A stretch of 21,289 nucleotides of DNA from a virus: positions 1 through 21,289 of IMG/VR virus record IMGVR_UViG_3300034198_003546. One strand, written 5' to 3'. Below are positions 1 to 21,289 of the stretch, in pieces. The position numbers and the translations under genes were made by a program. The notes under the pieces are model-generated. The model ran no database searches and was not told where the DNA came from. It saw only the letters and a program-made list of their open reading frames with translations. Position 1 is the first letter of the stretch. Each line of letters starts with the position of its first letter.

Positions 1-2
1 AT

Positions 3-329
3 AAAAAGCCAAGCGGCGAACCGAAATCCGCCGCCCGACCCAATGTTCAACGTCAAACGTCAAACAACAACAACGTCGCCAAAGATACACACGAATGTGT
101 TTTATTCGGGTCAATTGCAGAACATTTTTGTGATTGGGAAATCACGTTCATGATTCACCACATGAACAAGGAAAAAACATTCGGGGTTAAAATCAACCGT
201 CAATCCATTAAATTCATGGCAATCGAAACGATCCGTGAATTCATTAACACAATCAACGTCGGTTCAATCGGTCAATCCGTCGTTGGTTGCATATTATCAA
301 AATTGGCCACAAATACACAACAACCATAA
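3..329 (+). CDS. Partial gene of unknown function, cut by the left edge
   Basis: The frame is open from the window edge to a TAA at 327-329, giving at least 108 residues. The visible part has a low-complexity basic and Asn-rich stretch (four Asn codons at 66-77, read from an AAC repeat), then a compact segment with KTFGVKINRQSIKF and IETIREFINTI that looks folded. Codon use (TTG/TTA leucines, CGT/CGC arginines) matches neighbouring genes. The true start is outside the window, or possibly an internal ATG near 150. I do not recognise the family. The stop sits 2 bases before the next start, suggesting one transcript with the recombination genes. Confidence 0.6.
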   Translation, partial: KKPSGEPKSAARPNVQRQTSNNNNVAKDTHECVLFGSIAEHFCDWEITFMIHHMNKEKTFGVKINRQSIKFMAIETIREFINTINVGSIGQSVVGCILSKLATNTQQP

Positions 330-331
330 AC

Positions 332-814
332 ATGGAACAAAATTTTTTGCAAATGGTCAACGCGGAACAATCGTTGACAAAGACACGCGCCGCAGAGTTC
401 GCGGAAATGATTATTGAGATTAACGAAAACGGTCATGTGGACACGTTCACGGCGTTGGCCCGATTGGAATTCATGTCCCAGGTGATCGACAACGCCAAAT
501 CGAAATTGAGGCAATCCGCCACGGACGAATTGGATTTGTATGGTCCCGAAGCCAAAACGGGGATCAAACGTTTCGGGGTGACATTTAAGTCCAAAGAAAC
601 GGCGGTGAAATATGATTTTTCAATGACACCCATTTGGAACGATTTGAAAGCCGCAGAGGATCACGCGTCGGATCAACGCAAGGATTTGGAGGCCCAATTG
701 AAAGCGTTAAAAAAATCAACCGTGAATGTGGATCCCGAAACGGGTGAAATGGTCGAAATGGTTGTCCCAATCAAATCTTCAAAAACAACAGTCGAAATAA
801 CATTATCAAAATAA
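332..814 (+). CDS. 160-aa helical/coiled-coil phage protein upstream of recT
   Basis: Starts at the ATG after an A/C-rich leader (ACAACCATAAAC); an upstream in-frame TTG at 287 would overlap the previous gene and is less likely. The protein is charged and probably helical (FTALARLEFMSQVIDNAKSKL; later a Lys/Glu-rich coiled coil around residues 100-130), then a beta-like tail with PETGEMVEMVVPIKSSKTTVEI. It lies directly before the Bet/RecT gene, where phages often keep an exonuclease or nuclease inhibitor, but I see no exonuclease motif and it is too short for a RecE/lambda-Exo nuclease. It may be a recombination accessory protein; that rests on position only. Confidence 0.8.
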   Translation: MEQNFLQMVNAEQSLTKTRAAEFAEMIIEINENGHVDTFTALARLEFMSQVIDNAKSKLRQSATDELDLYGPEAKTGIKRFGVTFKSKETAVKYDFSMTPIWNDLKAAEDHASDQRKDLEAQLKALKKSTVNVDPETGEMVEMVVPIKSSKTTVEITLSK

Positions 815-816
815 TT

Positions 817-836
817 TTCAACAAATATTGTTTGAA
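817..836 (+). repeat. Imperfect palindrome TTCAACAA...TTGTTTGAA upstream of recT
   Basis: An imperfect inverted repeat of 20 bases lies 3 bases after the stop of the 160-aa gene and 44 bases before the recT start. A near-identical but perfect version (8-bp arms, 4-base loop) occurs at 4478-4497, again in an intergenic gap before a gene with a CAA leader. The sharing suggests a regulatory site or weak hairpin. There is no following T-run, so it is not a standard terminator. Confidence 0.4.
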
Positions 837-858
837 CGATTGTTCATTCGTATCTTCG
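831..858 (+). promoter_or_regulatory. Weak candidate Bacteroidetes-type promoter before recT
   Basis: TTTG at 831-834 and TATCTTCG at 851-858 resemble the Bacteroidetes -33 TTTG and -7 TAnnTTTG boxes, with one mismatch in the -7 box. The spacer is 16 bases, shorter than the usual 19 or so; using ATTG at 827-830 gives 20. The 66-base gap is one of the few places in the early region with room for a promoter. Low confidence. Confidence 0.2.
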
Positions 859-880
859 TTGAAATCAAAACAACAACAAC

Positions 881-1819
881 ATGAACGAGATTCAAAAAAA
901 CCAGGTCCACACCATTGACGTGGGCAAATTACAAACGTATTTGAACGCCATGGGAATGGCGAACAATTTGACCAAAGGCGAATTCGAACAATTTGTGGAA
1001 ATCGCCCAAGGGTTCGGACTGAATCCATTTAAGCGCGAAATATACGCGAATAAATACGGGAACAATTTTTCGGTCATTGTCGGATATGAAACGTATATAA
1101 AACGCGCGGAACGTTCGGGTTTATTATCGGGGTGGTCGGTGAAAACCGACGGGTCGGTCAATTTCCAAAAGCCAAAGGAATCGACATTGAGGGCTGAAAT
1201 CACAATTCACCGCCGCGATTTTCAACACCCATTTATTCATGAAGTTTATTTTTCCGAGTATTTTGGAACGACAAAGGACGGTGTATTAAATAAGTTTTGG
1301 GGATCTAAACCCATGACCATGATTAAAAAGGTTGCAATGGCCCAGGGTTTCCGATTGTGTTTTTCGGACGAATTGGGTGGTATGCCATACACGGCGGAGG
1401 AAATGAACACCATGGACGCGGATCATGTTGTAATTCCAAAACAAATAACAGTTCAAATTGAACCAAGCCCCGAAACATTAAAGGCCGAAATTGAAAATTT
1501 GGCCAAGGCCATGACCATGGTCAAGGAATCAAACGACATGGATCAATTGCGAAATGTTTGGGTTCAATTCGAAAATCTTCATGGAAATCCCGATTTCAAA
1601 AAATTGGTAAATGATCGGAAGTCACAATTCGCCGCAGACGTTGAACCACAAACCGATTTGAAATCGGAGGACGAAATGATCAAATTGATTTCGGATTGTT
1701 CAAATGAAATTGAGTTGTTGGAATTAACCGCAAACGAAACCCGTCGTGACGTTTTGGACGCCGCGTTGGTTCGTGTGACTGAATTAAGCGAAACCGCTGA
1801 AAATGGGGGGGACAAATGA
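881..1819 (+). CDS. bet: Phage recombination protein Bet / RecT-family single-strand annealing protein
   Basis: The 312-aa protein carries the Bet-family core: GLNPFKREIYANKYG followed by a strand segment (SVIVGYETYIKRAERSGLLSGW), then HPFIHEVYFSEYF and the signature KPMTMIKKVAMAQGFRLCFSDELGGMPYTAEE at about residues 145-178. These proteins bind ssDNA, anneal complementary strands and drive phage recombination, normally with a partner 5'-3' exonuclease. No exonuclease is recognisable in this window. It is longer than lambda Bet (261 aa) because of an acidic, helical C-terminal tail (about residues 200-312) that may bind SSB or another partner. The ATG follows a perfect CAACAACAAC leader. The stop overlaps the next start by 4 bases (ATGA). 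A G6 run lies just before the stop. Confidence 0.93.
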   Translation: MNEIQKNQVHTIDVGKLQTYLNAMGMANNLTKGEFEQFVEIAQGFGLNPFKREIYANKYGNNFSVIVGYETYIKRAERSGLLSGWSVKTDGSVNFQKPKESTLRAEITIHRRDFQHPFIHEVYFSEYFGTTKDGVLNKFWGSKPMTMIKKVAMAQGFRLCFSDELGGMPYTAEEMNTMDADHVVIPKQITVQIEPSPETLKAEIENLAKAMTMVKESNDMDQLRNVWVQFENLHGNPDFKKLVNDRKSQFAADVEPQTDLKSEDEMIKLISDCSNEIELLELTANETRRDVLDAALVRVTELSETAENGGDK

Positions 1820-2211
1820 AACAAGTGACACGAAATCGAATCCAAAGGATTAAATCAAATATCAAATTGAAATTTGGATCCATTCGTCAATTTTGCGCGG
1901 TGGCGCGGTTCAATTATTGGACCGCGACCAACGCGTTGAATGGTCGTTTGGAATTGGATCACATGTTGGACGTATTATCGGACATGGAACGTTTAATCGC
2001 TGCAATCCCCGTTCCGCCATGTGACGAATGTATCAACACCGAGGACCGCGAATTTGTTCGTATCACGTTGATTACACGGTGGAAATCAATTCAAAAGTTC
2101 GTGGACAACAACCCCGAATTTTCAATGACCTTTGTTCACAATGTAATTGCGGGAAAACGAAAGATCCGCGACAATCGATTTCACCAATTGATTGAATCCG
2201 TTAAATCATGA
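1816..2211 (+). CDS. Small protein with two tandem helix-turn-helix-like halves
   Basis: 131 aa, coupled by ATGA overlaps both to recT upstream and to the replication gene downstream. Residues about 18-60 and 87-130 can be aligned by eye: SIRQF/SIQKF, then a helix, then NALNGRLEL.DHMLDVLSDME against NVIAGKRKIRDNRFHQLIESVK. This is the pattern of a short DNA-binding helix-turn-helix repeated after internal duplication. The linker holds a Pro/Cys motif (PPCDEC). It could bind two half-sites as a monomer, perhaps at the origin or as a regulator; function is inferred. No known family is recognised. Confidence 0.8.
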   Translation: MKQVTRNRIQRIKSNIKLKFGSIRQFCAVARFNYWTATNALNGRLELDHMLDVLSDMERLIAAIPVPPCDECINTEDREFVRITLITRWKSIQKFVDNNPEFSMTFVHNVIAGKRKIRDNRFHQLIESVKS

Positions 2212-3014
2212 ACAATAATATCAAACAAAATTCCAGGGATCGCCAACCCGCGTTTCAATTTTATGCGGGGGATTGGTTGACCGATCCGTCTTTAAGAATG
2301 TGTTCATTCGAAACCCGTGGCGTTTGGATTGATATGTTGTGTGTCATGTTTTTGAGCGACGAAATCGGTGTTTTGAAGATCGGGAACCAAATTTTGGACG
2401 AAAACAATGTCCGAAAATTGGTCGGAATGTCGCCAAAAAAGTTCAAAAAAGTGTGGAATGAACTGATAAATTTTGGAATCCTAAAATGTGACGAAAACGG
2501 TCGGTTTTTTTCCAAACGAATGGTTGGTGACGAACGAATTCGCCAAGTCAGACGGGAGGTTGGTAAATTAGGAGGGAACCCGCAGTTGACAAAATTGGTT
2601 GGTGGTTTGGATAAGCAAAAGCGCAACCAAAAGCCAACCCCTTCATCTTCATCTTCATCTTCATCTTCAATAAATACAAACAATGAGATTGTTTGTGTGT
2701 CGGACCATGAATTGGTTGATCATGGAAAAATTCATTTTTTGATTGATCATGTGGCGAAAAATTTTCCAAATGTCGCAAAAATTAAAAATCAATTGACCAA
2801 TGAACAATGTGAAAATTTGGAGGCGGAATTTTCCCGCGCTGAAATCATTGAAGTTTTGGAGGCCATGGAAAACCATTCAAACGTCACGAAAAAATACATG
2901 TCGGTTTCATTAACTTTGAAAAATTGGATTAAAATTCGAAAACAAAATGTCAAACAACAACAACAAAATGGTCGTTCGAAACCCGATTTCGACGATTCAA
3001 TTCGCAAGTTTTAA
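2208..3014 (+). CDS. DUF1376-like phage replication initiation protein
   Basis: 268 aa. The N-terminus has the DUF1376-type motif FQFYAGDWLTDPSLRMCSFETRGVWIDMLCVMF (about residues 17-49), followed by a winged-helix-like section (NNVRKLVGMSPKKFKKVWNELINFGIL). A poly-serine linker of nine Ser (about 145-153, encoded by a TCATCT repeat) joins a C-terminal domain with SRAEIIEVLEAMENH and KKYMSVSLTLKNWIKIRK, resembling the C-terminal part of phage replisome organisers that recruit the helicase. The family is typically a phage replication protein acting at the origin. It overlaps its upstream neighbour by 4 bases and ends in a Gln-rich tail (KQQQQNG) encoded by the next gene's CAA leader. Confidence 0.8.
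   Translation: MNNNIKQNSRDRQPAFQFYAGDWLTDPSLRMCSFETRGVWIDMLCVMFLSDEIGVLKIGNQILDENNVRKLVGMSPKKFKKVWNELINFGILKCDENGRFFSKRMVGDERIRQVRREVGKLGGNPQLTKLVGGLDKQKRNQKPTPSSSSSSSSSINTNNEIVCVSDHELVDHGKIHFLIDHVAKNFPNVAKIKNQLTNEQCENLEAEFSRAEIIEVLEAMENHSNVTKKYMSVSLTLKNWIKIRKQNVKQQQQNGRSKPDFDDSIRKF
2640..2669 (+). repeat. Hexanucleotide CTTCAT microsatellite coding poly-serine
   Basis: About five head-to-tail copies of a 6-base unit (CTTCAT, last copy CTTCAA) inside the replication gene. Read in frame it gives Ser-Ser per unit, forming the flexible linker between the two domains. Because the unit is a multiple of three, slippage would change linker length without breaking the frame. Confidence 0.85.
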
Positions 3015-3822
3015 GGGCCGCGAAATTGCAGAGGCCGCAACCCAGGACACACCAATCCGTGATTTGATTGACGACGAACCAATCCGTCAATCGTTGCGTT
3101 ATGTGTTCGCGTTGATTGGATTGAAAGCGGAAAACCTACCAACGGACGTTCAAAAAATCGTTTTGTTGGAATTCATTCAAACCGAATTAAAACATTTCAC
3201 CCCCGAAGAACTGAAATTGGCGTTTCGAATGGCGGTCGCGGGTGAACTGAATGTGGAAATTTCCCATTTCCAAAATTTTAACGCCATGTATTTGTCCAAT
3301 GTCATGAACGCATACAAAGAAAAACGCGGGGCCGCATTGATCGAAATGAACCAAAAATTGAAAGCAATGGAACCAAAAAAAGAACCAACCGAGGCGGAAC
3401 AAATCGCCGCGTTTTGGGAATACATGGAACAATTCGTCGGGTCAAAATTTGAGCAATACCGAACAACCAAACAAATCGATTGGGACAAAGTTTTTGGATC
3501 GGATCACATGTTCATTCAATTGGAAAAATTGGGGATCATTCATTTAACAGTTGACCGAAAAAATGAAATCATGAAGATCGCAGAAACCCAAGTCAAAACC
3601 CAATGGGAAAATGAACGTTCACAATCCCGTGATCGTGTTCGTGAAATACGTCAATTGCGCGAAGCGTTGGCGGAGGGATTAAAACCGCCGCAGAATTTCC
3701 AACAAAAGGTTGTGACCCGCGCTCGTGAATTAGCAATCGAACAAACGTTCGCGTCAATGTTGGAATCAAATATCGATTTCAAAGAAACAATTCAATCAAT
3801 TAAATCAAATCAATATGAGTAA
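2968..3822 (+). CDS. 284-aa helical protein paired with the replication initiator, unknown function
   Basis: I chose the ATG at 2968 because it follows CAACAACAACAAA, the start leader used by recT and others; an in-frame ATG at 2947 would add MSNNNNK and a longer overlap. The protein is mostly alpha-helical: FTPEELKLAFRMAVAGELNVE with HFQNFNAMYLSNVMNAYKEKRG (about residues 75-120), then a charged coiled region rich in Arg/Glu (NERSQSRDRVREIRQLREAL). Its place directly after the initiator and before SSB suggests a replication accessory, for example a helicase loader analogue, but no Walker motif is visible and function is not assigned. It overlaps the initiator by 47 bases and the next gene by 8. 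Confidence 0.85.
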   Translation: MVVRNPISTIQFASFKGREIAEAATQDTPIRDLIDDEPIRQSLRYVFALIGLKAENLPTDVQKIVLLEFIQTELKHFTPEELKLAFRMAVAGELNVEISHFQNFNAMYLSNVMNAYKEKRGAALIEMNQKLKAMEPKKEPTEAEQIAAFWEYMEQFVGSKFEQYRTTKQIDWDKVFGSDHMFIQLEKLGIIHLTVDRKNEIMKIAETQVKTQWENERSQSRDRVREIRQLREALAEGLKPPQNFQQKVVTRARELAIEQTFASMLESNIDFKETIQSIKSNQYE

Positions 3823-4075: not shown

Positions 4076-4084
4076 AACAACAAT

Positions 4085-4474
4085 ATGAATAAAATCATTG
4101 TAATTGGACGCGTTGGACGCGATCCCGAAACACGAACGTTTGGCCAAGGAACAAGCGTCACAAATTATTCGTTGGCGGTGACTGAAAAATGGTCCCGCAA
4201 CGGTGAAAAGGAAGAAAAAACCACATGGTTCAACATTTCACAATTCGGACGCGGTGCGGAATTCGCGGCCCAATACGTTCGCAAAGGACAAAAAATCGCC
4301 GTTGACGGACGATTGGAAATCCGTGAATGGACCGACAAAAACGGAATCACCCGCAAAGATCCCGAAATCGTGGCGGACAACGTTGAAATTTTAGCGGATC
4401 CAAATCGAGTTGCAAACAATACCCAGGAACAACCGCAGCAAATTTCACCCGACGGTGAAGAAACACCGTTTTAA
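4085..4474 (+). CDS. ssb: Single-stranded DNA-binding protein (SSB)
   Basis: 129 aa with a clear bacterial-type OB fold: MNKIIVIGRVGRDPETR at the start, then TSVTNYSLAVTEKW, TTWFNISQFGRGAEFAAQYVRKGQKIAVDGRLEIREWTDKNG and IVADNVEIL. It ends in a short disordered linker and an acidic tip DGEETPF, matching the terminal Pro-Phe peptide by which SSB recruits partner proteins. It coats phage ssDNA during replication and would work with the Bet/RecT protein. The length is at the short end of the family, as usual for phage SSBs. The start follows AAAACAACAAT. A 95-base intergenic gap follows, the largest in the early region. Confidence 0.96.
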   Translation: MNKIIVIGRVGRDPETRTFGQGTSVTNYSLAVTEKWSRNGEKEEKTTWFNISQFGRGAEFAAQYVRKGQKIAVDGRLEIREWTDKNGITRKDPEIVADNVEILADPNRVANNTQEQPQQISPDGEETPF

Positions 4475-4477
4475 TCA

Positions 4478-4497
4478 TTCAACAAATAATTGTTGAA
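4478..4497 (+). repeat. Perfect 8-bp palindrome TTCAACAA-ATAA-TTGTTGAA
   Basis: The arms at 4478-4485 and 4490-4497 are exact reverse complements around a 4-base loop, 3 bases after the ssb stop. The same core occurs imperfectly at 817-836 before recT. It is a candidate regulator-binding site or weak hairpin. No T-run follows on the + strand. Confidence 0.5.
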
Positions 4498-5293: not shown

Positions 5294-5451
5294 GAATAAA
5301 TAAAAATTTTGACGACGGGGTCGCATGGTGCGACCGTCAAATCCAAATGTTGACCCAACAACGCCAATCGATTGATCGCATGATCACGAAGTACGAAAAC
5401 AAAAAAAATTTATTGATTCAAAAACAACAACAAAATGATCAAAAACTTTGA
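5290..5451 (+). CDS. 53-aa microprotein with a poly-Gln C-terminus
   Basis: ATG at 5290 overlaps the previous stop as ATGA and the frame runs to TGA at 5449-5451. The product is short, polar and likely helical (DRQIQMLTQQRQSIDRMITKYENKKN) and ends LIQKQQQNDQKL, where the Gln run is the next gene's CAA leader read as codons. It fills a gap that would otherwise be empty in a tightly packed genome. It overlaps the next gene by 17 bases. No family recognised. Confidence 0.65.
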   Translation: MRINKNFDDGVAWCDRQIQMLTQQRQSIDRMITKYENKKNLLIQKQQQNDQKL

Positions 5452-5833
5452 AGAACACACCGTTGAATTGTCACCCGACGAACAAAAATTTGTGGGCGTA
5501 ATCGTGCAAAGATTCAACACCAAAAAAGGAAAACAACACATTGTCACCGCAGACGCAATAATTGAGGGGCTGAAAACCCATTTCAATTTTGAGTTCAAGG
5601 AATCCAGGGTCCGAAAAATGATTCAATACATTCGATTAAACAATTTGGTCGTGGGATTGATCGCAACGTCCAAAGGGTATTTCGTCGCGGATTCAATCGA
5701 GGAGATTCAAGATTGGGTTAATTCATTAAAATCCAGGGAAAACGCGATCCGTTCCATTCGTGAAATTGCAGAACGTCAAATCGAAATCATGAATATTTCA
5801 AACCAACCAACAACCCAATTTGAACTTTTTTAA
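5435..5833 (+). CDS. Winged-helix-like phage DNA-binding protein
   Basis: 132 aa. After a short N-terminus come two helices (DEQKFVGVIVQRFNTKKG, ADAIIEGLKTHFNF) and then ESRVRKMIQYIRLNNLVVGLIATSKGYFVADSIEEIQDWVNSLKSRENAIRSI. The VRKMIQYIR recognition-like helix followed by LIATSKGYFVA as a beta wing, then the EEIQDWVNSLKSRENAI helix, is a layout I know from many small phage proteins of presumed winged-helix fold. DNA binding is inferred; the target is unknown. The start follows AAAACAACAACAAA. Confidence 0.8.
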   Translation: MIKNFEEHTVELSPDEQKFVGVIVQRFNTKKGKQHIVTADAIIEGLKTHFNFEFKESRVRKMIQYIRLNNLVVGLIATSKGYFVADSIEEIQDWVNSLKSRENAIRSIREIAERQIEIMNISNQPTTQFELF

Positions 5834-7694: not shown

Positions 7695-8963
7695 ATGGTC
7701 AAATTTGAACCGCACCCCAAACAATTAGAATTCATGGAGGCCGTTTTCGGCGGAGGTTATGAATCGTTGTTGTATGGCGGGGCGGCGGGTGGCGGGAAAT
7801 CTTATGTGTCATTGGCCACATTGATATTGTTGGCGAAGATTTTCCCCAATTCCAAGTCACACGTGATACGCGAATCGTTGCCGTCGTTAAAGCGGACCAC
7901 CATTCCAACGTTTTTCAAGTTATGCCCGAAGTCATTTATCCGCTCTTATCACCAAACGGACCACATTGTGACGTTCGTCAATGGTTCAACCCTGGAGTTT
8001 TTCCCCGAAAATTACAACATGGACAAAGATTTGACGCGATTCGACGGATTGGAAACAAATTTTTTTTTGATTGAGGAGGCCCAAGAGGTACAAAAAAAGA
8101 CCTTTGAAAAGTGCAAATTGAGGGTGGGCCGTCACATTATACCGAACCAACCGCCCCGTTTAATTTTATTGACATGCAACCCGTCGCAGACGTGGACCAA
8201 AACCGAATTCCACGAACCCGCAATGGCGGGAACATTGCCGCCGTCGTATTTCTACAAACGCGCGTTAATGATCGACAATCCAACATTACCGACCGAGTAT
8301 TTGGCCGCCATGCAAAATTTGGACGAAATCACCCGCGCCGTGTTCGTCAATGGGGATTGGGACGTGATTGACGTGGACCGCCCGTTCGCTTACGCGTTTA
8401 ATAAGTTCAAGACTGTTAAACCAAACGTCGAAATCAACCCAAAGGAACCAATCATTTTGTCGTTCGATTTCAACGTCGATCCGATTACATGTATTGCGGG
8501 GCAATCATACAACGATAAAATCCGAATCATTCGGGAATTTAGATTGAGGAATTCGGACATTTTCCAATTGTGCGAAACGATTCGCGTGGCGTTTGGGGAT
8601 CGGTTTTTCATTATCACGGGTGACGCGTCGGGGGCCAACCGTTCCGCCATGACCAAGGGGGCGTTGAATTATTACATGATCATTCGGGACGAATTGGGGA
8701 TCCCCAAATCCGCGTTCAAGGTTCCAAGCGTGAACCCTTCAATAAAAAATTCGCGGGTATTGCTCAATTCAATGTTGGAAAAACACCCCGATTTGATTAT
8801 CGATTCGAGTTGTCAATTTTTGATTCATGATTTGCAGAACGTCGAAACAACGGCCAATGGGGACATTGACAAAGGCCGCGACGCGTCGTTGACCCATTTG
8901 TTGGATTGTTTCCGTTATTATTTGTGGACATTTCACAACGATTTCATTCGTTTTATGAAATGA
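7695..8963 (+). CDS. terL: Terminase large subunit
   Basis: 422 aa. ATPase half: Walker A GGAAGGGKS (residues 28-36), Walker B FFLIEEA (about 123-129, with Glu-Glu in place of the usual Asp-Glu) and the coupling motif LLTCNPS (158-164). Nuclease half, RNase-H-like: acidic residues in SFDFNVDP (Asp258), IITGDASG (Asp310) and LLDCFRYYLW (Asp404), the expected three metal ligands. The protein translocates phage DNA into the prohead through the portal and cuts the concatemer. Length fits the family. Neighbours are TerS upstream and, unusually, tail genes rather than the portal downstream. Confidence 0.96.
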   Translation: MVKFEPHPKQLEFMEAVFGGGYESLLYGGAAGGGKSYVSLATLILLAKIFPNSKSHVIRESLPSLKRTTIPTFFKLCPKSFIRSYHQTDHIVTFVNGSTLEFFPENYNMDKDLTRFDGLETNFFLIEEAQEVQKKTFEKCKLRVGRHIIPNQPPRLILLTCNPSQTWTKTEFHEPAMAGTLPPSYFYKRALMIDNPTLPTEYLAAMQNLDEITRAVFVNGDWDVIDVDRPFAYAFNKFKTVKPNVEINPKEPIILSFDFNVDPITCIAGQSYNDKIRIIREFRLRNSDIFQLCETIRVAFGDRFFIITGDASGANRSAMTKGALNYYMIIRDELGIPKSAFKVPSVNPSIKNSRVLLNSMLEKHPDLIIDSSCQFLIHDLQNVETTANGDIDKGRDASLTHLLDCFRYYLWTFHNDFIRFMK

Positions 8964-8996: not shown

Positions 8997-9155
8997 ATGC
9001 CAGGACAAAAACGTTTTTCCGCAAAATTTGACCGTTGTGTTTCCCATGTCCAAGCGTCGGGGAAAAACCGTTCCGCGTCTTATGCCATTTGCCAAGTTAG
9101 CGTAAACAAAAAAGGCGGTGGAATAATAAGCAAACCCAAAAAATCAACAAAATGA
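8997..9155 (+). CDS. 52-aa basic cysteine-containing phage microprotein
   Basis: From ATG 8997 the frame runs to TGA 9153-9155, overlapping the next ATG by 4 bases. The sequence FDRCVSHVQASGKNRSASYAIC has the spacing F..CV..V...SAYAIC that I have seen in many tiny phage proteins encoded near virion genes (general form CV..V......YAVC). The rest is basic and Gly-rich (KKGGGIISKPKKSTK). Function unknown; the two Cys and Lys content would suit a minor DNA- or virion-associated protein. The ATGA coupling and compact packing support its being real. Confidence 0.75.
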   Translation: MPGQKRFSAKFDRCVSHVQASGKNRSASYAICQVSVNKKGGGIISKPKKSTK

Positions 9156-9902: not shown

Positions 9903-12900
9903 ATGGCAGAGGTCAAAAACATATTATTCAAGTTACAAGCCGACACGTCGCAAATGCGTCGTGAATTGGACGCAATAAAATCGGGAATTAACAACGTCGG
10001 AACCGCAACGAAACAAACGGAATCCGCCGTTTCGGGATTGAAGAAAACATTGGCGGGGGCCGCCGCCGCGTTTGGTGGTATTTCAGTCGCCGCCGCGGCA
10101 ATTGATTTCGGTAAAGGCGCGATCCAGGCGGTTGCGGATTACGAAAACGTTCAAATTTCATTGGAAACATTTTTGGGTTCCGCAGACAAAGCGAAAAAAA
10201 CATTCAAGGAATTGGAGGAATTTTCAATCAAAACCCCATTCACCCCCGAACAAGTCAACCAAGCGGGAAAGGCGTTGTTGGCGTTCGGTGAACCCGTGGA
10301 TCAATTGACCACGACGTTGGGACGGATTGGTGACGTATCGTCGGCAACGGGCAAAGATTTTAATGAATTAGCGGTTATTTATGGGAAGGCCCGTGTTCAA
10401 GGAACATTGTTCGCCGAGGATATAAACCAATTGACCGAAGCGGGTGTCCCGATCATTGGGGAATTCGCCAAACAATTGGGCGTGTCCGAAAAGGAGGTCA
10501 AAAAATTAGGGTCCGAAGGGAAAATTTCATTCGCCAATCTCGAAAAGGGATTCCAATCATTAACGTCCGAGGGTGGACGGTTTTTTGGTTTGACCGATAA
10601 GTTGTCGCAATCAACCACGGGTCGTTTGTCCACATTGGAGGGGAATTTTACCGAGTTAAAACGATCCATTGGCCAGGGTTTATTGCCCGTTTTCGAATCG
10701 TTGGTGGGCGTTGCGTTTGACGTGATTGACGGATTGAGAGCAATCCCCGCGTTTGTCGAAGAAAACCGCAGAACATTATTGTTGTTGGCGGGTGTTGTGG
10801 CGTTTTATGTTGGCCAAAGAAAAGCCGCATTACAAGCCGAAATACTTTATGAGGCCCGTTTCAAGTTGTTGTTGATCCGTGAACAATTGGGATTGGTAGT
10901 CACCAAAGCCAAGGCGTTTTTCACACGGGCGGCGGCAACGGCCACGAACGTATTGACGGGGGCCACGTCGGCCCAAGCGGTGGTAACGCGTGGCGCAACG
11001 GCGGCCCAGGCGGCGTTGAATGGGGCAATGAAAGCGAATCCGATCGGATTGGTGATTGGTTTGGTCACTACATTATTGGCATTATTCCCCGATTTGATTT
11101 TTGGGGCGGAGGACGCCGCCGCGGCGACACAACAATTGTCGTTGGAACAACAAGCGGTCGCGGATTTTACGGAAATCATGAACAAAAAAATCGCCGACGA
11201 ACAAGTTGAATTGGACGGTTTATTTAACGCGTTGCGTAATACCAACGCGGGAACGGCGGAACGTTCGCAATTGATCAATGAAATCAATTCAAAGTATGGG
11301 ACGACATTGACCAATTTGAAAACCGAAAAGGAATTCGTTGAACAATTGGACATTGCGTATCAAAATTTGATTACTCAAATACGAAATAAAGCGGCCGCAG
11401 AGGCAAAAACCCAGGTGATCACCGATTTGATCGCTAAACAAATCCGCGCCCAACAGTTTTTGGAAAATTCATTTTCGGGTTTGGCCAATTCCATAGGTCA
11501 AGGATCCGCCACGGCCATGAAAATTTTCGACGGTTTATCCAAAGAAAATAAAAAATTGGTTATGGAATTAGTGGCGGGAAATAAAACCGCAACCGAGGCG
11601 TTGGCTGATAACCCATGGGGTGTTCGGGGTGCGGAATTAGACGCCGCGGGAGCCGCTAAAAATTTACAAAATGTGGCGGCGTCGTTAGCAAACGTTGATA
11701 ATCCATTTTTACAATTATCCCAATCCGAAACCGACGCAATCGCCAAAATTGAGGAGGAAACGGGATCCGCGGTTTCGAGTTACCAATATTTTTTGGAACA
11801 ATATGAAGCCACAACACGCGGAATTGCCGCCGTTGACGCCGCGTATGTTGTAACGGGCAAAGACAAACCCAATCCGCGAACATTTACAAGCGCGTCGGCA
11901 AACAAAGACGCGGAAAAATTAAAAGAGGCCCAAAACAAATTGAAATTTTCGTTACAACGAGAAATCGATAAACAAGTCCTCGAATTGAAATTTCAACCCG
12001 CGTTGTTGGCGGATCCGAAAAACGTCGAACAAGCGGTGGACCAAGCACAAAAAATCGGGCAAAAACAACGTGAAATTTTTGAACAAGAGATCGCCCAACG
12101 GATTGAGGATTCGAAAACGGAGGGAACATTCACGACCGCAATCGCGTTGCAATTTGGGGAATTGAAGAAAAACGGATTGGAAATTTTAGCAGCAGAAACG
12201 GAAAACGCAATCACCAAGATTAAAGAGGACGCGGAAAAAAAGAGATTGACGACATTGGATCAAATCGCCGCCGTGGAATTGGAACGCCAATTGACGTTGG
12301 TGGAACAAAACACCCAAACATTGGAGGGGCAAAGGTCCAAATTGATTAAAGATTTGGCCGACGCCCGTGGAACCGAGGAACAAAATCGAATCCGTCAACA
12401 GTTGAATGATAATTTGAAATTGATTAAAGATTCATTGACAAACGAACAAGGCGTGAGAATTAAAGCCATTGAAGCGGACCGCGACGCGGAATTGAAAAAT
12501 ACTGAATTGACATTGGAGGAACGAACGTTGATCGAAAAACAAGCGGATTTGGAAATATTAAAAACCAAAAACGATTTTCACGACCGATCAATCAAATTAT
12601 TGGAGGACGAAACGGACAAAACTAAAGAGGAAACCGCAAAACGAAAAGAGGCGATTATCCAGGGAATCGAGGACGTTTTGAAAGCGACATTGGATTTGGC
12701 CAACGCGGTCATTGACGCACAAATTCGCCAAACGGACGCCGCCATTTCGGCCCAACAAAGACGTGTTGACGCCGCCGCAGAAATTGCAGAAAAGGGAAAC
12801 GCCGAGTTGCTACAAATCGAAGAAACCCGTTTACAAAAGTTGAACGAACAAAAGGCGAAATTCGTCCGCGCACAACAAGGGTTGGCCGCCATTGAATTGG

Positions 12901-13373
12901 TTGCCAATTCCGCCGTGGCAATTTCGAAAGCCGCCGCCGAGGGTGGGGCCGCCGCACCATTCACCATTGCCGCGACATTGATCGCATTGGCCGCGGGATT
13001 GGTTGCCGCCCGTGCCCAAGCCAGGGCCGCCGCGGGATCATTTGCCGAGGGGGGTTACACGGGCGACGGTGGGAAATATGAATCCGCGGGTGTTGTTCAC
13101 CGTGGGGAATTTGTCATGACCAAAGAAAAAACGCGCCAATGGCGTCCATTATTGGAGGCGATCCACGCGGGTCGTGATCCAATGTTGGCCAAGGGATTGA
13201 ATGATCGTGTTATTGCGATAAACAACAAATCCATGGATTCAAAATTGGAACGTATTGAAATGGCAATTCGTCAACAAAAGGGTTTGACATTATCGATTGA
13301 CGAACGCGGGATCAACGGAATCGTTTCGAAATTGCAGTATAAAGAACAACGAATTCGAAACAAAGCCAAATGA
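9903..13373 (+). CDS. Tail tape measure protein
   Basis: 1156 aa, the longest gene here. The N-terminus is a short coiled coil (LFKLQADTSQMRRELDAI), followed at about residues 75-280 by the conserved tape-measure domain (ADYENVQISLETFLGSADKA ... EFSIKTPFTPEQVNQAGKALLAFG ... RVQGTLFAEDINQL ... GVPIIGEFAKQLG). Hydrophobic segments occur near 291-305 (TLLLLAGVVAFYVG), in PIGLVIGLVTTLLALFP and near the end (FTIAATLIALAAGLVAARA). The centre is long charged coiled coil. The end has GSFAEGGYTGDGGKYESAGVVHRGEF, a frequent C-terminal motif. No cysteine was noticed. It sets tail length; at about 0.15 nm per residue that would be roughly 170 nm. Confidence 0.96.
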   Translation: MAEVKNILFKLQADTSQMRRELDAIKSGINNVGTATKQTESAVSGLKKTLAGAAAAFGGISVAAAAIDFGKGAIQAVADYENVQISLETFLGSADKAKKTFKELEEFSIKTPFTPEQVNQAGKALLAFGEPVDQLTTTLGRIGDVSSATGKDFNELAVIYGKARVQGTLFAEDINQLTEAGVPIIGEFAKQLGVSEKEVKKLGSEGKISFANLEKGFQSLTSEGGRFFGLTDKLSQSTTGRLSTLEGNFTELKRSIGQGLLPVFESLVGVAFDVIDGLRAIPAFVEENRRTLLLLAGVVAFYVGQRKAALQAEILYEARFKLLLIREQLGLVVTKAKAFFTRAAATATNVLTGATSAQAVVTRGATAAQAALNGAMKANPIGLVIGLVTTLLALFPDLIFGAEDAAAATQQLSLEQQAVADFTEIMNKKIADEQVELDGLFNALRNTNAGTAERSQLINEINSKYGTTLTNLKTEKEFVEQLDIAYQNLITQIRNKAAAEAKTQVITDLIAKQIRAQQFLENSFSGLANSIGQGSATAMKIFDGLSKENKKLVMELVAGNKTATEALADNPWGVRGAELDAAGAAKNLQNVAASLANVDNPFLQLSQSETDAIAKIEEETGSAVSSYQYFLEQYEATTRGIAAVDAAYVVTGKDKPNPRTFTSASANKDAEKLKEAQNKLKFSLQREIDKQVLELKFQPALLADPKNVEQAVDQAQKIGQKQREIFEQEIAQRIEDSKTEGTFTTAIALQFGELKKNGLEILAAETENAITKIKEDAEKKRLTTLDQIAAVELERQLTLVEQNTQTLEGQRSKLIKDLADARGTEEQNRIRQQLNDNLKLIKDSLTNEQGVRIKAIEADRDAELKNTELTLEERTLIEKQADLEILKTKNDFHDRSIKLLEDETDKTKEETAKRKEAIIQGIEDVLKATLDLANAVIDAQIRQTDAAISAQQRRVDAAAEIAEKGNAELLQIEETRLQKLNEQKAKFVRAQQGLAAIELVANSAVAISKAAAEGGAAAPFTIAATLIALAAGLVAARAQARAAAGSFAEGGYTGDGGKYESAGVVHRGEFVMTKEKTRQWRPLLEAIHAGRDPMLAKGLNDRVIAINNKSMDSKLERIEMAIRQQKGLTLSIDERGINGIVSKLQYKEQRIRNKAK

Positions 13374-15138: not shown

Positions 15139-17955
15139 ATGCCAAATAAATTTTCAATCGGATCATGTTTGAATCCATTACCAACCCAAAATCGGGTTTG
15201 GATTCGTTGTTGTCAAACGTTGACATGTACCGTTACCAATGTACACAATACCCCATTGACATTAACCGACACGAAATTGACGTTCAATGTCGGCGCACTG
15301 TATTCAGTTACGGGAATTTCAATCAATGGTGTGACGCCATACGAAAACAATTTACCAATTGTCGTTCCCGTCGGAGGAACATTTGAAATTGTCATGGACA
15401 TTTGTCACACGGGAATGGCAAAAACAGACGTTGGTATTTTATCAATTGATTTCACAACCGTAGAACATGGAGTTGAAACCAACGCGTTTAATTTTGCGGT
15501 TTCCCATACAATGTTCCCATACGTTTCACCCAACCCATTGGATTTTGGATCGGTGATTTTTGGAACAACGGGGACCGCCAATTTGAACGTGACCAATCCA
15601 ACGATTGGACCCATGGATTTTATTATTGATTTTGCCGCATGTTCCGAAGGTGGGTTCGATTTGCACACGCCAACGAATCCCGTGAATATTGCGCCAGGTG
15701 TGACCCAAGCCGTTCCAATCGAATGGACGCCGCAAATGGTTTTAGAAATTTTGGAATGTTCGATCCGAGTGACTGTTGAATGTAATGGGGTGAATACAAC
15801 ATTGGACGTGTCGGGAATTTCCGAACAAGATTGTTCATGTTTGTGTTGTGACGACGTGACCGTTGTAACTGAAAACGATTTATTGAGAGGGGTTAAAGGG
15901 TTATGTGCAACGACCGAATTGTTTAATCGTTCCGCCGTATGTGAACAAAAAACAGTTCGGTTTACATTTACATATTTGAATGGATTAACCGACGGCCTAA
16001 AAATTTGGTTCAACCCATGGTTGTGGTCATTTTGGTGTGATTTCGGGACAAAATACGGATCGGGAATCGTTGACGGCCCACCGCCCGTTGGTTGGTTTTT
16101 GAATTACAACAATTCTACAATGGGGGTTGGAACACAAACGGCCATGGCATTGATTGGAACGGGTTCCAATTTCATGGCGGCCAAAAATTTCGGGGTAACA
16201 TTTGAACCATTGGACACCCAACAATTTGTAATTGAATTCACATTTTTTCAAATTGAAGATTTGGACAATTGGACCACGGCGAATTTGGTTCCGAACAACC
16301 CTAAATGGAGGCGGACCGACGTGAGCGCAATCAATCCGCCCGTTGGCGATTCATTATTGACGAACATGTTTCCGTCGGTTTACAACATGCCCAAAAAATT
16401 GTGTTCGTTGTTTTATTTGATTGATCCAAACACAACGGTGGACGGCCAACCTTTTGAGTGTGCGGAAACGCAAACAATCAATTGGGCGTCACGTTGGTAT
16501 AATTCGGGTTTATATGGTGGGGCGTCCGAGTTCACGGATCATTCGTTCACATTTGAACGCAATGGGGCAAACGTTCCGAATTTTTCAACAGTTCAAACAA
16601 CCAAAGTTTATTTTCAAATTACCATTCCACCCGCTTATTCGGGTGGATTAAACGGAGTTATTTTTCAGTTGTTTGACGAAACCCAAACAACCAATTCGGT
16701 GGATTTTTTGACCAATTACGGTTCAAGTCGCGCGGAAATTCCAAATGTTGGCGGGATTTCAGTATTGGACAACAATTTGGAATCGCCGTCGGACACAATT
16801 TCATTAGGCGGAGGAGTTTATCAAATATCCGCACACGTCGGAATTGGTGTCAATCCGTCGGGCGTTTATCGAGTGGCGGCGATTGTTTACGGTGGGGATT
16901 CGCAGACGGTCAACACATTTATTTCGGATCCGATCGAAGTCACCCAGGTCCCCGATTTGGAATGTGACGGGTGTGGTATTAAAATAAACAAACAAAATTT
17001 CAAACAATATTTTCAAAAAAACGACACAAATTGTGTTCAACCCGTAGCAAAGGAACGGATCAACCATTTTTTACAATTGGCGGCGGGAAATTTCAAAGAT
17101 TGTTTGTCCGCATGGGGCGCGTCCATTCCCGATTACCGTGAATACATGAATAATATCACGTTGAACGTTTATCGCAGAGTTCAAGATTTTCCAACCGTTG
17201 GTCAAACGACATTTTTCATTTGGCAAACCCACCAATCCAATCGCGTGATTGGGTTCCCAGGCAATTGGCAAAATTTAGGTGACATGATTGTGGCGGACAT
17301 TGGGTCAACGTTTATTGATATAAATTTCGAAACAAGAGTTCGTTGGGAATCAACCGCATTTGACGGGCCGTCGATAATGTTGGCAAACACGGCCACATAT
17401 ATGAACCGAACGTCGGCGGGTCCATTGGGGTCCACATACGTTTCGACATTGGGGATCACTAACGATTGGCGTGGCGAAGAAATTTATTTGGAATACCGAT
17501 TCCGTTTTGATTTATCCGCTTTATTTGGTCAACCATATATTGCAAACCAAATCGCAGCGTTCGCAGTCCGACCAATCCAAAATGAATTTGACAATTCGGG
17601 GTATTCAAGTATTTTAACCGACATGAAGGTTGAAGGATATAAAGACGAAACGGGCGAATGGACGGGAATCAATGGACCAATTTGTCCGTCCGATTGGGAC
17701 CAAATTCGCGTAATTTATACGGCAAACCAAAACGGTGATTTTATTTTCTTCATGAACCCATTGGGCGGAGGCGTTTCGCAATTAACCGAATCCGAATATA
17801 ATGTTTCACCATTTAGTTTTTCGCAAATGGTCAACGTGTTGTCAATTGACCCCGATTTTTCAAGTGGCCAGGCGGCCGCTTATTTGGATCTTACAACATT
17901 GACAAATGGAACATGGGAATTGTGTGGATTGATTTCAGTTCCGCCCGTGTATTAA
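15139..17955 (+). CDS. Large cysteine-rich tail protein with Ig-like/ASH domains
   Basis: 938 aa. Two beta-sandwich domains open the protein: about residues 25-125 (TCTVTNVHNTPLTLTDTKLTF ... VPVGGTFEIVMDICHTG) and 127-228, where FPYVSPNPLDFGSVIFGTTGTANLNVTNPT ... VNIAPGVTQAVPIEWTP ... CNGVNTTLDVSGISE matches the ASPM/SPD-2/Hydin (ASH) or choice-of-anchor type. A knot-like DCSCLCCDD follows at 231-239. The remaining 700 residues are beta-rich with aromatic and Asn-rich strands and about 23 Cys in all. The likely role is a distal tail or receptor-contact protein outside the cell. No signal peptide, as expected for a virion protein. The function is inferred from domains and position. Confidence 0.78.
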   Translation: MPNKFSIGSCLNPLPTQNRVWIRCCQTLTCTVTNVHNTPLTLTDTKLTFNVGALYSVTGISINGVTPYENNLPIVVPVGGTFEIVMDICHTGMAKTDVGILSIDFTTVEHGVETNAFNFAVSHTMFPYVSPNPLDFGSVIFGTTGTANLNVTNPTIGPMDFIIDFAACSEGGFDLHTPTNPVNIAPGVTQAVPIEWTPQMVLEILECSIRVTVECNGVNTTLDVSGISEQDCSCLCCDDVTVVTENDLLRGVKGLCATTELFNRSAVCEQKTVRFTFTYLNGLTDGLKIWFNPWLWSFWCDFGTKYGSGIVDGPPPVGWFLNYNNSTMGVGTQTAMALIGTGSNFMAAKNFGVTFEPLDTQQFVIEFTFFQIEDLDNWTTANLVPNNPKWRRTDVSAINPPVGDSLLTNMFPSVYNMPKKLCSLFYLIDPNTTVDGQPFECAETQTINWASRWYNSGLYGGASEFTDHSFTFERNGANVPNFSTVQTTKVYFQITIPPAYSGGLNGVIFQLFDETQTTNSVDFLTNYGSSRAEIPNVGGISVLDNNLESPSDTISLGGGVYQISAHVGIGVNPSGVYRVAAIVYGGDSQTVNTFISDPIEVTQVPDLECDGCGIKINKQNFKQYFQKNDTNCVQPVAKERINHFLQLAAGNFKDCLSAWGASIPDYREYMNNITLNVYRRVQDFPTVGQTTFFIWQTHQSNRVIGFPGNWQNLGDMIVADIGSTFIDINFETRVRWESTAFDGPSIMLANTATYMNRTSAGPLGSTYVSTLGITNDWRGEEIYLEYRFRFDLSALFGQPYIANQIAAFAVRPIQNEFDNSGYSSILTDMKVEGYKDETGEWTGINGPICPSDWDQIRVIYTANQNGDFIFFMNPLGGGVSQLTESEYNVSPFSFSQMVNVLSIDPDFSSGQAAAYLDLTTLTNGTWELCGLISVPPVY

Positions 17956-17992
17956 AAAAATGAAAAACCGCATGTCGATAAAAAAAACACCG

Positions 17993-18000
17993 TAAATTTG
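17993..18000 (+). promoter_or_regulatory. TAAATTTG box just before a start (possible -7 element)
   Basis: Fits TAnnTTTG, 5 bases before ATG 18006, in a 50-base A-rich gap between two tail genes. It is the only one of the three such boxes outside coding sequence (apart from an 11-codon ORF not thought real). No -33 box at the usual distance. Confidence 0.25.
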
Positions 18001-18005
18001 AAACC

Positions 18006-19055
18006 ATGGCCGAATTGTTTGATTCATATATAAATCCCAATAACCCGTCCGAGGTTTATTGCGATTTGACGGACGAATTTGATTGTCCCGATCCAAACAC
18101 CCGCTTGTTATGCGGAACGATTCAAATATTTTGCGGGTCAAATACGTTTTGTTCAGACATGATTGTCAACAACGGTTTGATTTTGTGCGATTGCCACGAA
18201 TCATGGAACTGTAATTTGTGCGGCAACGATTCCGCGTTTTGGATTCCATTTCAAACGGGTGACACATACACATTCCAATTCCAACAAATACTAATTAAAC
18301 CCGTAGGCGGTTGGTTTTCAAACGGTACAACATTTATAGGTGCCGCAAGTTTTCGAATAACAACATGTTGTGGCAATTCATTTAATATTGACGACGAATT
18401 ATTCAATCAATTTGTTCTAAATCAATTTGTCGGTGAATTTCAAACAACCCAGGTTGGCGGAATTGTCACAACAACACCAATTCAACAAATCGAATTTGAT
18501 TTGTACGCAATCACCGAGTATTTAATCGCCCAAGGTTGGGACACATGTTTTTATTTTGAATTTTGTTTTGGAAACCCCAAAGAAGAAAAACCACAATGTT
18601 TTTGTTCGGAACCGTTCAAATTGGAGGTTTGCAGCGACAAAAAACAATCGGTTTTGATTGAATCCGATTATCCGTCAACGGATTGTTTTGGCCTATATTA
18701 CGGGAACAATTGGTCCGACGTTTTTGGCGGAATTGCGTTCAATTATTCAAATCAAATTCGGATCCCATGTTCATTTGAACAAACCAATTTTAACATTTCC
18801 AAATCGATCATTGAAACGTCGCGCAAAACGACGGGTTCGGAAATATGCGAGAATTGGCTAATGAATTCGTTCGCATTGCCGCAGAGGTTCACAAAAATAT
18901 TGGCCACCATTGTCGCGGGGACAAACATAACAATCGACGGTGTTGATTTCAACATTGACGGCGAAATCACAAAAAATAATGAAATTGGAACCCGTTGGTG
19001 GGTTTCGTTAACTTTCGAACATTGCGAATGTTCTAAATCCCTTACATGTTTATGA
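18006..19055 (+). CDS. Very cysteine-rich putative distal tail protein
   Basis: 349 aa with about 22 cysteines (some 6 percent), in pairs such as CDCHESWNCNLC, TTCCGN, CFCSEPF and a C-terminal HCECSKSLTCL. Between them are beta-type strands rich in Phe, Asn and Gln (DTYTFQFQQILIKPVGGWFSNG, GEFQTTQVGGIVTTTPIQQIEFDLY). It shares the CxC style and composition of the preceding 938-aa gene, suggesting that both belong to the same distal tail or adhesin structure stabilised by disulfides or metal. No enzymatic motif. The start follows AAATTTGAAACC. The end overlaps the portal start. Confidence 0.75.
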   Translation: MAELFDSYINPNNPSEVYCDLTDEFDCPDPNTRLLCGTIQIFCGSNTFCSDMIVNNGLILCDCHESWNCNLCGNDSAFWIPFQTGDTYTFQFQQILIKPVGGWFSNGTTFIGAASFRITTCCGNSFNIDDELFNQFVLNQFVGEFQTTQVGGIVTTTPIQQIEFDLYAITEYLIAQGWDTCFYFEFCFGNPKEEKPQCFCSEPFKLEVCSDKKQSVLIESDYPSTDCFGLYYGNNWSDVFGGIAFNYSNQIRIPCSFEQTNFNISKSIIETSRKTTGSEICENWLMNSFALPQRFTKILATIVAGTNITIDGVDFNIDGEITKNNEIGTRWWVSLTFEHCECSKSLTCL

Positions 19056-20980
19056 TTGAAATCGAGCAAATCACCGCGTTATTGGCGGACGAAAAATACC
19101 GACCAAAAAAATACGAAGATTGGAACGACGTTCGTCGAACAATGTTTGTTCACACCCGTGGCAAAAACCCCGAAAACATATTGACGGCGCGTCGTCCGAA
19201 TGAGGATCCCGACGTTCAAAAATATCGTTTGTCGATTTACGAACCAATCACAAAGGGTTCAATGAATCGCGCGATTGATAAGTTGTTCCGCATTTTCCAA
19301 AACGCAAATTTTTCGATCCAGGTATCGGACGAATTGAACACATATTTGTCACAACACAAATTCGACGGTCAATTTTTTTATTCATACATTCAAAAGTTCG
19401 TCGTTCGACGCATGATTGAAGATCCGAACGGTTATTTGGTTTGGATCCCCGTGGGGCCAGGATTGACCGATCCAACAGTCAAGGTTGACGTTGAACCGAT
19501 TTTGATCATGTCCAACGACATTAAAGTTTTGAACCACAATTTGATCACATGGAGGTCAAACGACGAATATTCCATGATCCGCGAAAACGGAAAAATGGTT
19601 GAACGTGGCGTTGTTTATTACACCATGACCGACACGGCGTTTTTCCGCCATGAACAATTTGGAAACGCCATTGATAAAAAATTCAACACGGTGATCGTTT
19701 ACGAACATAACATTGGCCAATGTCCCGCCGTTATTTTGGGTGGGGATTTGACCGACGACAATTTTTTCGATTCATATTTTTCCGCGTTTGTTCCATTCGC
19801 AAATGAAGCGATCCGCCAATATTCCGATTGGACGGCGGTCATGACAACGTCGGCGTTTCCTTATCGTGAGGAGGTTGCCGAAACATGTGACGCGAAGGGT
19901 TGCCGCGACGGTGTCGTTTACAATTCCGAACATGAAGAACATGAAACATGTTCAAAATGTAAAGGATCGGGACGAATCATTTCACGTTCACCATTTGGGG
20001 TTTTTCTTCGAGAAAAGGGGAATGCAGCATTGGGAACGGACACGGGTTCAAGTGAACCAATGATTCGATTCATTTCACCGCCCGTTGACATTATCAAATA
20101 TTCGGGCGAAGCGTGGGAAACGTTATTAAGAAAAGCCGAGGAATCGTTGCATTTGAACACAATCGACGAAGCGCAAAGCGGAACGGCCAAACAAATCGAT
20201 CGTGAGGATTCGTTTTCGCAGTTGACCAAGATTTCAAACAATTTATTCGACGAAATCATTTTCAAATCGTTGGTATTTATTGAGCAATACCGAAACGTTG
20301 TCAATCCAATGGATCCGATCATTGTCAAACCCATTTCGTTTTCCATGAAAACCGAGGACGATTTGATTGACGAATTGAACAAGTTAACCGACAAAAACGC
20401 CCCGATTGCTTTTTTGGTTGAATCAACCAAAGATTTGGCGCGGAAACGTTTTTCGGGAAACAAGACGGTTTCGAGGTTGGTTGAAATATTGGTTTCTTAT
20501 GATCCAATTTATCATTTGAACACCAAGGACAAACAAATGTTGTTGGCGTCGGGAACGATCCGAAAAGAGGATTTATTGAAGTCGTTGTTTGCTTACAAAA
20601 CATTGACCGCCATGGTCGCAGATAATGGAACCGAATTTTTGGAACAACCGTTGTCGGTGATCTTTGCCGAGTTGGACGCCAAATTGGCCCCAATACTTTC
20701 GATCTACATTCCAAAAACGGTGATCGATATAAATTCGGATTCCGCAGCAACGGGAACCCAGGACACCGAATTGGCCCGTCAACGCGCCGAGGCCCAAGCG
20801 AATCTAAAAGGAACCGTTGGGGGTGTTCAAGGTATATTGTCAATTCAACAATCCGTGTCCCAGGGCGTGACCAAACGCGACGCGGCGATTTCGTTATTGG
20901 AAACCATTTACGGGTTTGATTCCGAAACGGCGAATCGATTGTTGGGTGATCCAATTGAAATTCCGCCACCGACCGCGTGA
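19052..20980 (+). CDS. Portal protein with an inserted DnaJ-like zinc knuckle
   Basis: 642 aa from ATG 19052, which gives the ATGA overlap usual here (ATG 19046 would add two residues). Portal features: an N-terminal helical part with ITKGSMNRAIDKLFRIFQNANFSIQ, a stem-like region (FVPFANEAIRQYSDWTAVMTTSAFPY), ISPPVDIIKYSGEAWETLLRKAEESLHLNTIDEAQSGTAKQIDREDS, and the C-terminal GGVQGILSIQQSVSQGVTKRDAAISLLETIYGF typical of Bacteroidetes-phage portals. Twelve copies would form the DNA gate used by the terminase. Unusual insert at about residues 279-307: CDAKGC then CSKCKGSG, like a DnaJ CxxCxGxG zinc site. It lies after the tail genes, not next to terL. Confidence 0.88.
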   Translation: MIEIEQITALLADEKYRPKKYEDWNDVRRTMFVHTRGKNPENILTARRPNEDPDVQKYRLSIYEPITKGSMNRAIDKLFRIFQNANFSIQVSDELNTYLSQHKFDGQFFYSYIQKFVVRRMIEDPNGYLVWIPVGPGLTDPTVKVDVEPILIMSNDIKVLNHNLITWRSNDEYSMIRENGKMVERGVVYYTMTDTAFFRHEQFGNAIDKKFNTVIVYEHNIGQCPAVILGGDLTDDNFFDSYFSAFVPFANEAIRQYSDWTAVMTTSAFPYREEVAETCDAKGCRDGVVYNSEHEEHETCSKCKGSGRIISRSPFGVFLREKGNAALGTDTGSSEPMIRFISPPVDIIKYSGEAWETLLRKAEESLHLNTIDEAQSGTAKQIDREDSFSQLTKISNNLFDEIIFKSLVFIEQYRNVVNPMDPIIVKPISFSMKTEDDLIDELNKLTDKNAPIAFLVESTKDLARKRFSGNKTVSRLVEILVSYDPIYHLNTKDKQMLLASGTIRKEDLLKSLFAYKTLTAMVADNGTEFLEQPLSVIFAELDAKLAPILSIYIPKTVIDINSDSAATGTQDTELARQRAEAQANLKGTVGGVQGILSIQQSVSQGVTKRDAAISLLETIYGFDSETANRLLGDPIEIPPPTA

Positions 20981-21183
20981 TCCAGGAACGATTGAAACAT
21001 TGTAAATTTGCATTATTGGCATGTACAAACAACGTTAAATTGTTTTGTGACACATGTGACGGTGGTGACAATTACGAATGTTATGAACCCGAATTGGAAC
21101 GACGTGAAAAGTTAAAAAAAGAGCAAAAACAACAACAAAAACAAAATGGCGGAATTCACGGACGAAATAATTCGGATCATTGA
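20977..21183 (+). CDS. Small CxxC (zinc-ribbon-like) protein, GTG start
   Basis: 68 aa, starting with GTG at 20977 that overlaps the portal stop (GTGA). No in-frame ATG is available. Five cysteines in the first half (Cys9, 16, 24, 27, 35: C-x6-C-x7-C-x2-C-x7-C), with FCDTCDGGDNYEC recalling a zinc ribbon. The second half is a charged helix (ELERREKLKKEQKQQQKQNGG) whose Gln run is the next gene's CAA leader in another frame. It may be a minor head or connector-related protein; no family recognised. Confidence 0.65.
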   Translation: MIQERLKHCKFALLACTNNVKLFCDTCDGGDNYECYEPELERREKLKKEQKQQQKQNGGIHGRNNSDH

Positions 21184-21289
21184 AAAAAAGGATCGGACCA
21201 TGGAAACAATCAACAACGATTTGTTTCAATCATTGGATCCGACCCAACAAACGATTTTTGAAGCGGTAAAAAAACACATTTCAAAAATG
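21146..21289 (+). CDS. Partial gene after the portal, cut by the right edge
   Basis: ATG 21146 follows AAAACAACAACAAAAACAAA and the frame is open for 48 codons to the window edge. The visible product is acidic and helical (AEFTDEIIRIIEKKDRTMETI, then DPTQQTIFEAVKKHISK). Being directly after the portal, it might be a head morphogenesis, scaffold or capsid-related gene, but there is too little to say. Confidence 0.7.
   Translation, partial: MAEFTDEIIRIIEKKDRTMETINNDLFQSLDPTQQTIFEAVKKHISKM

Follow-up and report, generated by a model that had tools for sequence, protein, structure and literature searches.

Loss of CCGG and other short DNA words in a Flavobacterium-phage-like virus and its relatives

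Introduction

Avoidance of restriction sites by phages is usually pictured as affecting a single enzyme, with a few dozen of its sites lost. In non-temperate double-stranded DNA phages, 4 bp sites are known to disappear entirely, a loss presumed to be directed against Type II systems of the hosts (Rusinov et al. 2018, PMC6286503). The phage family described here likewise eliminates 4 bp sites completely. However, it purges several words together, including asymmetric words of 3–5 bp and two-base words, and its avoided sets change from one close relative to another and reshape codon usage. Enzymes that act on very short words exist in chloroviruses: the AG-specific nickase Nt.CviQXI (R/AG), the methyltransferase M.CviQII (AG), and Nt.CviPII (/CCD) (PMC7019647). 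Those enzymes belong to algal viruses that also encode methyltransferases of matching specificity, whereas the DNA analysed here lacks the word and such a gene was not found in it. A literature precedent for dinucleotide avoidance in phages was not found.

The closest described phages are tant8-1 (Tantvirus), FPSV-D22, and Fpv5-11, which have distant homologues of the portal protein (tant8-1) or the terminase (FPSV-D22) together with a winged-helix gene, c11. They share depletion of AG/CT and TA with the DNA analysed here, and their CTC is at 0.07–0.19 of expectation. In contrast, their AG/CT depletion is milder, their genomes are larger (40–43 kb), and the combined avoidance of CCGG and GATG is a feature of the window clade.

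Results

Gene content and relationships of the window

The window is the whole IMG/VR record IMGVR_UViG_3300034198_003546, a linear fragment of 21,289 bp. The full genome of the phage is about 33 kb, of which about a third is absent from the window; long relatives measure about 31–37 kb. The recognised features are:

881–1819, plus strand: RecT-family annealing protein (Pfam RecT, 7.5e-26; phrog_10056, 1.8e-41)
2208–3014, plus strand: replisome-organizer-like protein, which holds a Ser repeat (phrog_13246, 1.2e-11)
2641–2665, plus strand: (TTCATC)n microsatellite of Ser codons, site of all four CATC of the window (sequence)
4085–4474, plus strand: single-strand DNA-binding protein, SSB, cluster c16 (tblastn against annotated phage SSBs, best E 9e-25)
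5435–5833, plus strand: winged-helix protein, cluster c11, phrog_2113 (homologue searches)
7695–8963, plus strand: terminase large subunit, TerL (Pfam Terminase_3, 3.8e-7)
8997–9155, plus strand: open reading frame of 52 amino acids with a Pro-Gly pair encoded CCA-GGA at 9000 (sequence)
9903–13373, plus strand: tape measure protein (Pfam TMP_3, 5.6e-26)
19046–20980, plus strand: portal protein (phrog_7376, 4.3e-12)

The portal protein matched only Flavobacterium phages in the phage collection, suggesting that the hosts belong to the Bacteroidota. A profile of the portal matches tant8-1 at 2.5e-18, and a TerL profile matches FPSV-D22 at 1.7e-8 but not tant8-1. These similarities indicate that tant8-1 and the FPSV-like Flavobacterium phages are probably distant kin of the window phage, which would represent a separate genus. 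Megablast of the window against phages yielded zero matches, two scans of 84,980 bacterial and archaeal GTDB genomes revealed no relatives or related prophages, and searches with the SSB against phages and plasmids yielded no host. No integrase is present among the recognised genes, and the phage is probably lytic.

CCGG is absent from the window

The first-pass annotation of the window had reported that CCGG is missing. The computed count is zero in 21,289 bp, compared with 93–94 sites expected from a maximal-order Markov model (z = -12.7, the lowest of the 256 tetramers). When every codon was replaced by a GC3-matched random synonym, 56 sites were expected, and shuffling of synonymous codons, with codon usage and proteins fixed, gave 47.2 ± 4.9 (minimum 35 over 200 shuffles). 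CCGG is therefore under-represented beyond composition under all three null models (0 vs 47–94). The codon choices described in the annotation are also found. Pro-Gly is encoded CCA-GGN in six of six pairs in called genes (3824, 6391, 13940, 15694, 17257, and 19457) and, with the pair at 9000, in seven of seven, and Ala-Gly is GCG-GG in 22 of 22. Other restriction sites are still common, as had been stated (GGATCC 24, GAATTC 22, GATC 148, GGCC 80, and CATG 128).

The annotation had interpreted the pattern as selection against one specific site. The part of this reading that concerns selection through synonymous choice stands. The part that concerns a single site does not, because GATG/CATC, AGCT, and CT/AG are purged too and relatives purge other words. 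A host enzyme of the HpaII/MspI type would be a plausible agent of the CCGG loss, yet it would leave the avoidance of GATG/CATC and CT/AG to be accounted for.

Other words are purged along with CCGG

GATG does not occur in the window (0 vs 74 expected from the Markov model) and CATC occurs four times (vs 80), each time within the Ser repeat, so that four of about 155 expected GATG/CATC remain. Codon shuffling with fixed usage gave expectations of 82.6 ± 6.5 for GATG and 56.4 ± 6.2 for CATC, and the observed/expected numbers under the codon null are 0/84 for GATG, 4/65 for CATC, and 0/72 for AGCT. AGCT, CTAG, CTCC, and TCTG each have a count of zero. Asp codons preceding a G are GAC in 121 of 121 cases, and none of the 133 in-frame ATG codons has a G before it.

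The depletion extends to dinucleotides. CT (101 occurrences) is at 0.09 of the base-composition expectation, AG (530) at 0.35, and TA (595) at 0.35, with TT and AA enriched where CT/AG are depleted. GC3-matched synonym sampling gave 957 expected CT against 98 observed (about 10%). CT can be fully avoided by synonymous choice, whereas the protein sequences impose 257 of the 506 genic AG, chiefly where a Lys, Glu, or Gln codon precedes G, which is why AG seems less depleted than CT. The same words are absent or rare in the fuller members of the window clade, G001, G002, and G007. CCGG is thus one among several purged words.

Avoided sets differ between related lineages

Relatives were located by their terminases (279, of which 80 were kept), and the avoided set differs by lineage across the TerL tree of 85 rows. 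The window clade lacks CCGG and GATG/CATC, whereas clades with terminases 83–86% identical to that of the window avoid other words: GATC in G009 (observed/expected 0/163) and GAC/GTC in G022 (18/502), in which Asp is encoded GAT in 383 of 387 cases. Among more distant lineages, G017 avoids CTC/GAG (11/829) and also CCC; G016 has no CATG, CGCG, GGCC, or GCGC; CATG reaches 0/79 within the family; and one clade has CG at 0.04–0.07 of expectation and retains AG. Parsimony on the TerL tree requires at least five state changes each for CCGG, GATC, CATC, and AGCT, and six for CCCGC. Avoidance is a trait of the family with changing targets. The residual CATC in G007 (L101/L102) and G003 (L129/L130) is almost always A-CATC-R, which suggests that the avoided word there is longer than CATC or degenerate on one side.

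Two further observations concern individual relatives. The G016 contig (L117/L118, 36,745 bp) contains the tape-measure gene and adjoining genes twice (clusters c2, c0, and c4), either as a true duplication or as an assembly artefact. G013 encodes a TET-associated glycosyltransferase (L114:420–1499; Pfam TAGT, 4.7e-33), hinting that this phage may have hypermodified cytosine.

Selection acts on words in double-stranded DNA

Avoidance of asymmetric words extends to both strands: G022 has 14/309 GAC and 4/193 GTC, and G017 has 5/282 CTC and 6/547 GAG. G014 has an apparent strand asymmetry (CTC 0.16, GAG 0.83). Glu and Asp codons necessarily contain GA, whereas TC can be avoided, and the pattern can be interpreted as avoidance of TC/GA under protein constraint. 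The loss is not limited to genes, as intergenic CT number 2 vs 38.7 expected.

Pairs of relatives differ by 628 to 1,970 synonymous codons. The differences between the window and G007 created no CCGG (8.5 expected), and those in pairs with a GATC-lacking member created no GATC (12.8, 16.2, and 16.0 expected). All 16 NCTN contexts are at or below 0.11 in G007/G003, and all 16 NCGN contexts are at or below 0.17 in L093/L094, indicating that the avoided units there are the dinucleotides CT and CG, respectively. The unit is a trinucleotide in G017/G018, in which CTC is gone and CTT enriched. In a segment found only in G002, located between RecT and the following core gene (26117–27964; L096:6117–7964), CATC and AG are both at 0.50, vs 0.05 and 0.26 elsewhere, as if recently acquired DNA had been incompletely purged. 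The use of every kind of synonymous change, together with the intergenic loss, argues for selection against double-stranded DNA words and not for mutation bias or host codon usage. Selection against the words through synonymous choice is well supported.

Cultured phages

AG is normal (0.87–1.14) in Bacteroides phage BS-TP1, Riemerella phage CRP5, Flavobacterium phages 11b, 6H, and FCL-2, and in Nonlabens, Polaribacter, and Cellulophaga phages. In contrast, the Flavobacterium phages tant8-1, FPSV-D22, and Fpv11 have AG at 0.36–0.43, TA at 0.34–0.47, and CTC at 0.07–0.19; several other Flavobacterium phages, including 6H, which is listed with an integrase, have AG at 0.90–1.11. F. psychrophilum is host to both FPSV-D22 and 6H, of which only FPSV-D22 is depleted in AG/CT, indicating that the host species by itself does not set the composition.

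The siphovirus tant8-1 and the unrelated myovirus lotta8-1, both of which grow on Flavobacterium LMO8, are without CTC/GAG (0.07 and 0.09), CTAG, and GGCC. According to the paper that described their isolation, a methyltransferase was found in neither genus (PMC7077304). Muminphages and their relatives, which grow on LMO6/LMO9 and are annotated with three to four methyltransferases, do not avoid CTC (0.70–0.79). The contrast fits host restriction and is suggestive, with host strain and methyltransferase content varying together.

Other avoided sets occur in cultured phages. Flavobacterium phage 1/32 (L139), from the Baltic, has CA/TG at 0.62, CTC at 0.12, CATG at 0/64, and CCAG at 0/69. Riemerella phage CRP5 (L137) avoids most 4 bp palindromes (GATC 3/152, GCGC 1/45, GGCC 1/45, ACGT 7/152, and CATG 9/152) and has normal dinucleotides, which is the classical avoidance pattern.

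Methyltransferases and the winged-helix gene

No DNA methyltransferase was detected in G001, G002, G003, and G007 of the window clade (PF01555; the C5 cluster c49 is absent). Methyltransferases are sporadic in relatives, and a clear link to tolerated words was not seen in the genomes compared, among them the GATC-avoiding clade G008–G011. FPSV-D22 is AG-depleted despite a methylase gene.

The c11 gene is rare, with homologues limited to 32 of the 50,697 phage records, 31 of them from Flavobacterium phages and one from a Chryseobacterium phage, and many relatives carry a C-terminal Q-x-x-LF motif that resembles clamp-binding motifs. The gene is present in every AG/CT- or CTC-depleted family genome whose contig holds the region (G002 is cut there), as well as in tant8-1 and the FPSV phages, and family members with normal AG lack it. 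However, Chryseobacterium phage MA9V-3 combines a weak c11 homologue with normal AG, and c11 was rejected as the cause of the depletion; at most, it marks a lineage.

Discussion

We consider it likely that the window is part of the genome of a Flavobacterium-phage-like virus, probably a lytic one, that escapes cleavage of its DNA by lacking the target words. Restriction of unmodified phage DNA by the hosts is the best explanation for the selection. Bacterial hosts would cut unmodified phage DNA, and the phage would lose the target words: a system that cuts CCGG, with the specificity of HpaII/MspI, would lead to the loss of CCGG, and a second enzyme to that of GATG/CATC. Less certainly, the almost uniform disappearance of CT/AG, and elsewhere of CG, GAC/GTC, or CTC/GAG, may reflect a defence with a recognition word of 2–3 bp, and a change of host may change the avoided set of a lineage. 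Because phages of the family are mostly without methyltransferases, avoidance appears to replace modification. Host restriction would explain both the complete loss of 4–5 bp words and their turnover among lineages.

Several points count against host restriction. No cognate enzyme was found for the avoided words, and the short words are depleted to 2–20% and not eliminated. To our knowledge, no bacterial restriction system has a two-base recognition word. Avoidance in the survey of Rusinov et al. 2018 (PMC6286503) occurs almost solely at orthodox Type II sites, whereas the words avoided here include asymmetric and very short ones.

The loss of 4–5 bp sites is ordinary in kind. The same cannot be said of the near disappearance of two- and three-base words, which implies a defence with an exceptionally short recognition word. 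This loss requires either such a defence or many overlapping ones. The depletion could be the sum of many ordinary restriction words of 4–6 bp from diverse hosts, with no enzyme of 2–3 bp specificity involved. CCGG, GATC, CATG, CGCG, GGCC, ACCGT, CCCGC, and AGCT are each wholly absent from some lineages, indicating that several enzymes act at once, and the loss of CTC beside enriched CTT in G017/G018 agrees with such a sum. However, longer words in limited number should spare some of the contexts that are uniformly depleted around CT and CG, which favours very short specificity and makes the sum of longer words rather unlikely. Alternatively, the phage might encode its own nuclease of short specificity that degrades host DNA, from which a phage genome without the word would be safe. 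That the AG/CT trait follows phage lineage and not host in FPSV-D22 and 6H, and that chlorovirus enzymes such as Nt.CviQXI and Nt.CviPII have this kind of specificity (PMC7019647), fits this proposal. Nevertheless, it is improbable: neither the window genes nor the scanned core clusters included a recognisable nuclease, the one scanned protein of a relative that matched a PHROG nuclease was not linked to the trait, and the best gene correlate, c11, encodes a winged-helix protein with its weak Chryseobacterium homologue in a phage of normal AG. It also leaves the CTC depletion of lotta8-1 unexplained.

Mutation bias, such as C-to-T deamination at CT or CG resembling the loss of CpG in vertebrates, would agree with the enrichment of TT/AA but is very hard to reconcile with the codon patterns, which require other changes. 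ACT, GCT, CCT, and TCT codons are lost too (ACT 2/762 and GCT 2/651 in G007), although C-to-T there alters the amino acid. Phages lacking CG encode Arg as AGR (146 of 155 in L094), which C-to-T alone cannot produce from CGN, and close relatives switch avoided words. Equally remote is a match to host composition or codon usage, for which no supporting points were found, as codon usage flips between phages with 83–86% identical terminases and Flavobacterium phages such as 6H have ordinary AG. As metagenome contigs, the window and most relatives could raise the suspicion of a sequencing, assembly, or library artefact. The chance of this is negligible, since CCGG is zero in contigs from seven metagenomes and cultured phages have the same kind of depletion; the artefact is refuted by metagenome 3300037041, which yielded both L031 (CCGG 0/49) and L019 (27/24).

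Under host restriction, aquatic Bacteroidota could carry restriction-like defences that read two or three bases (AG/CT, CG, CTC/GAG, or GAC/GTC), with phages nearly deleting a dinucleotide and switching words at a change of host; we propose this broader reading only tentatively. Avoidance here reshapes the codon usage of a whole phage, down to a two-base word. The avoided set would be a readable record of host defences that could predict host range and flag defence enzymes of environmental Bacteroidota that have yet to be described. With related phages and hosts in culture (tant8-1, lotta8-1, FPSV-D22, and Flavobacterium LMO8), the cause of the avoidance is directly testable.
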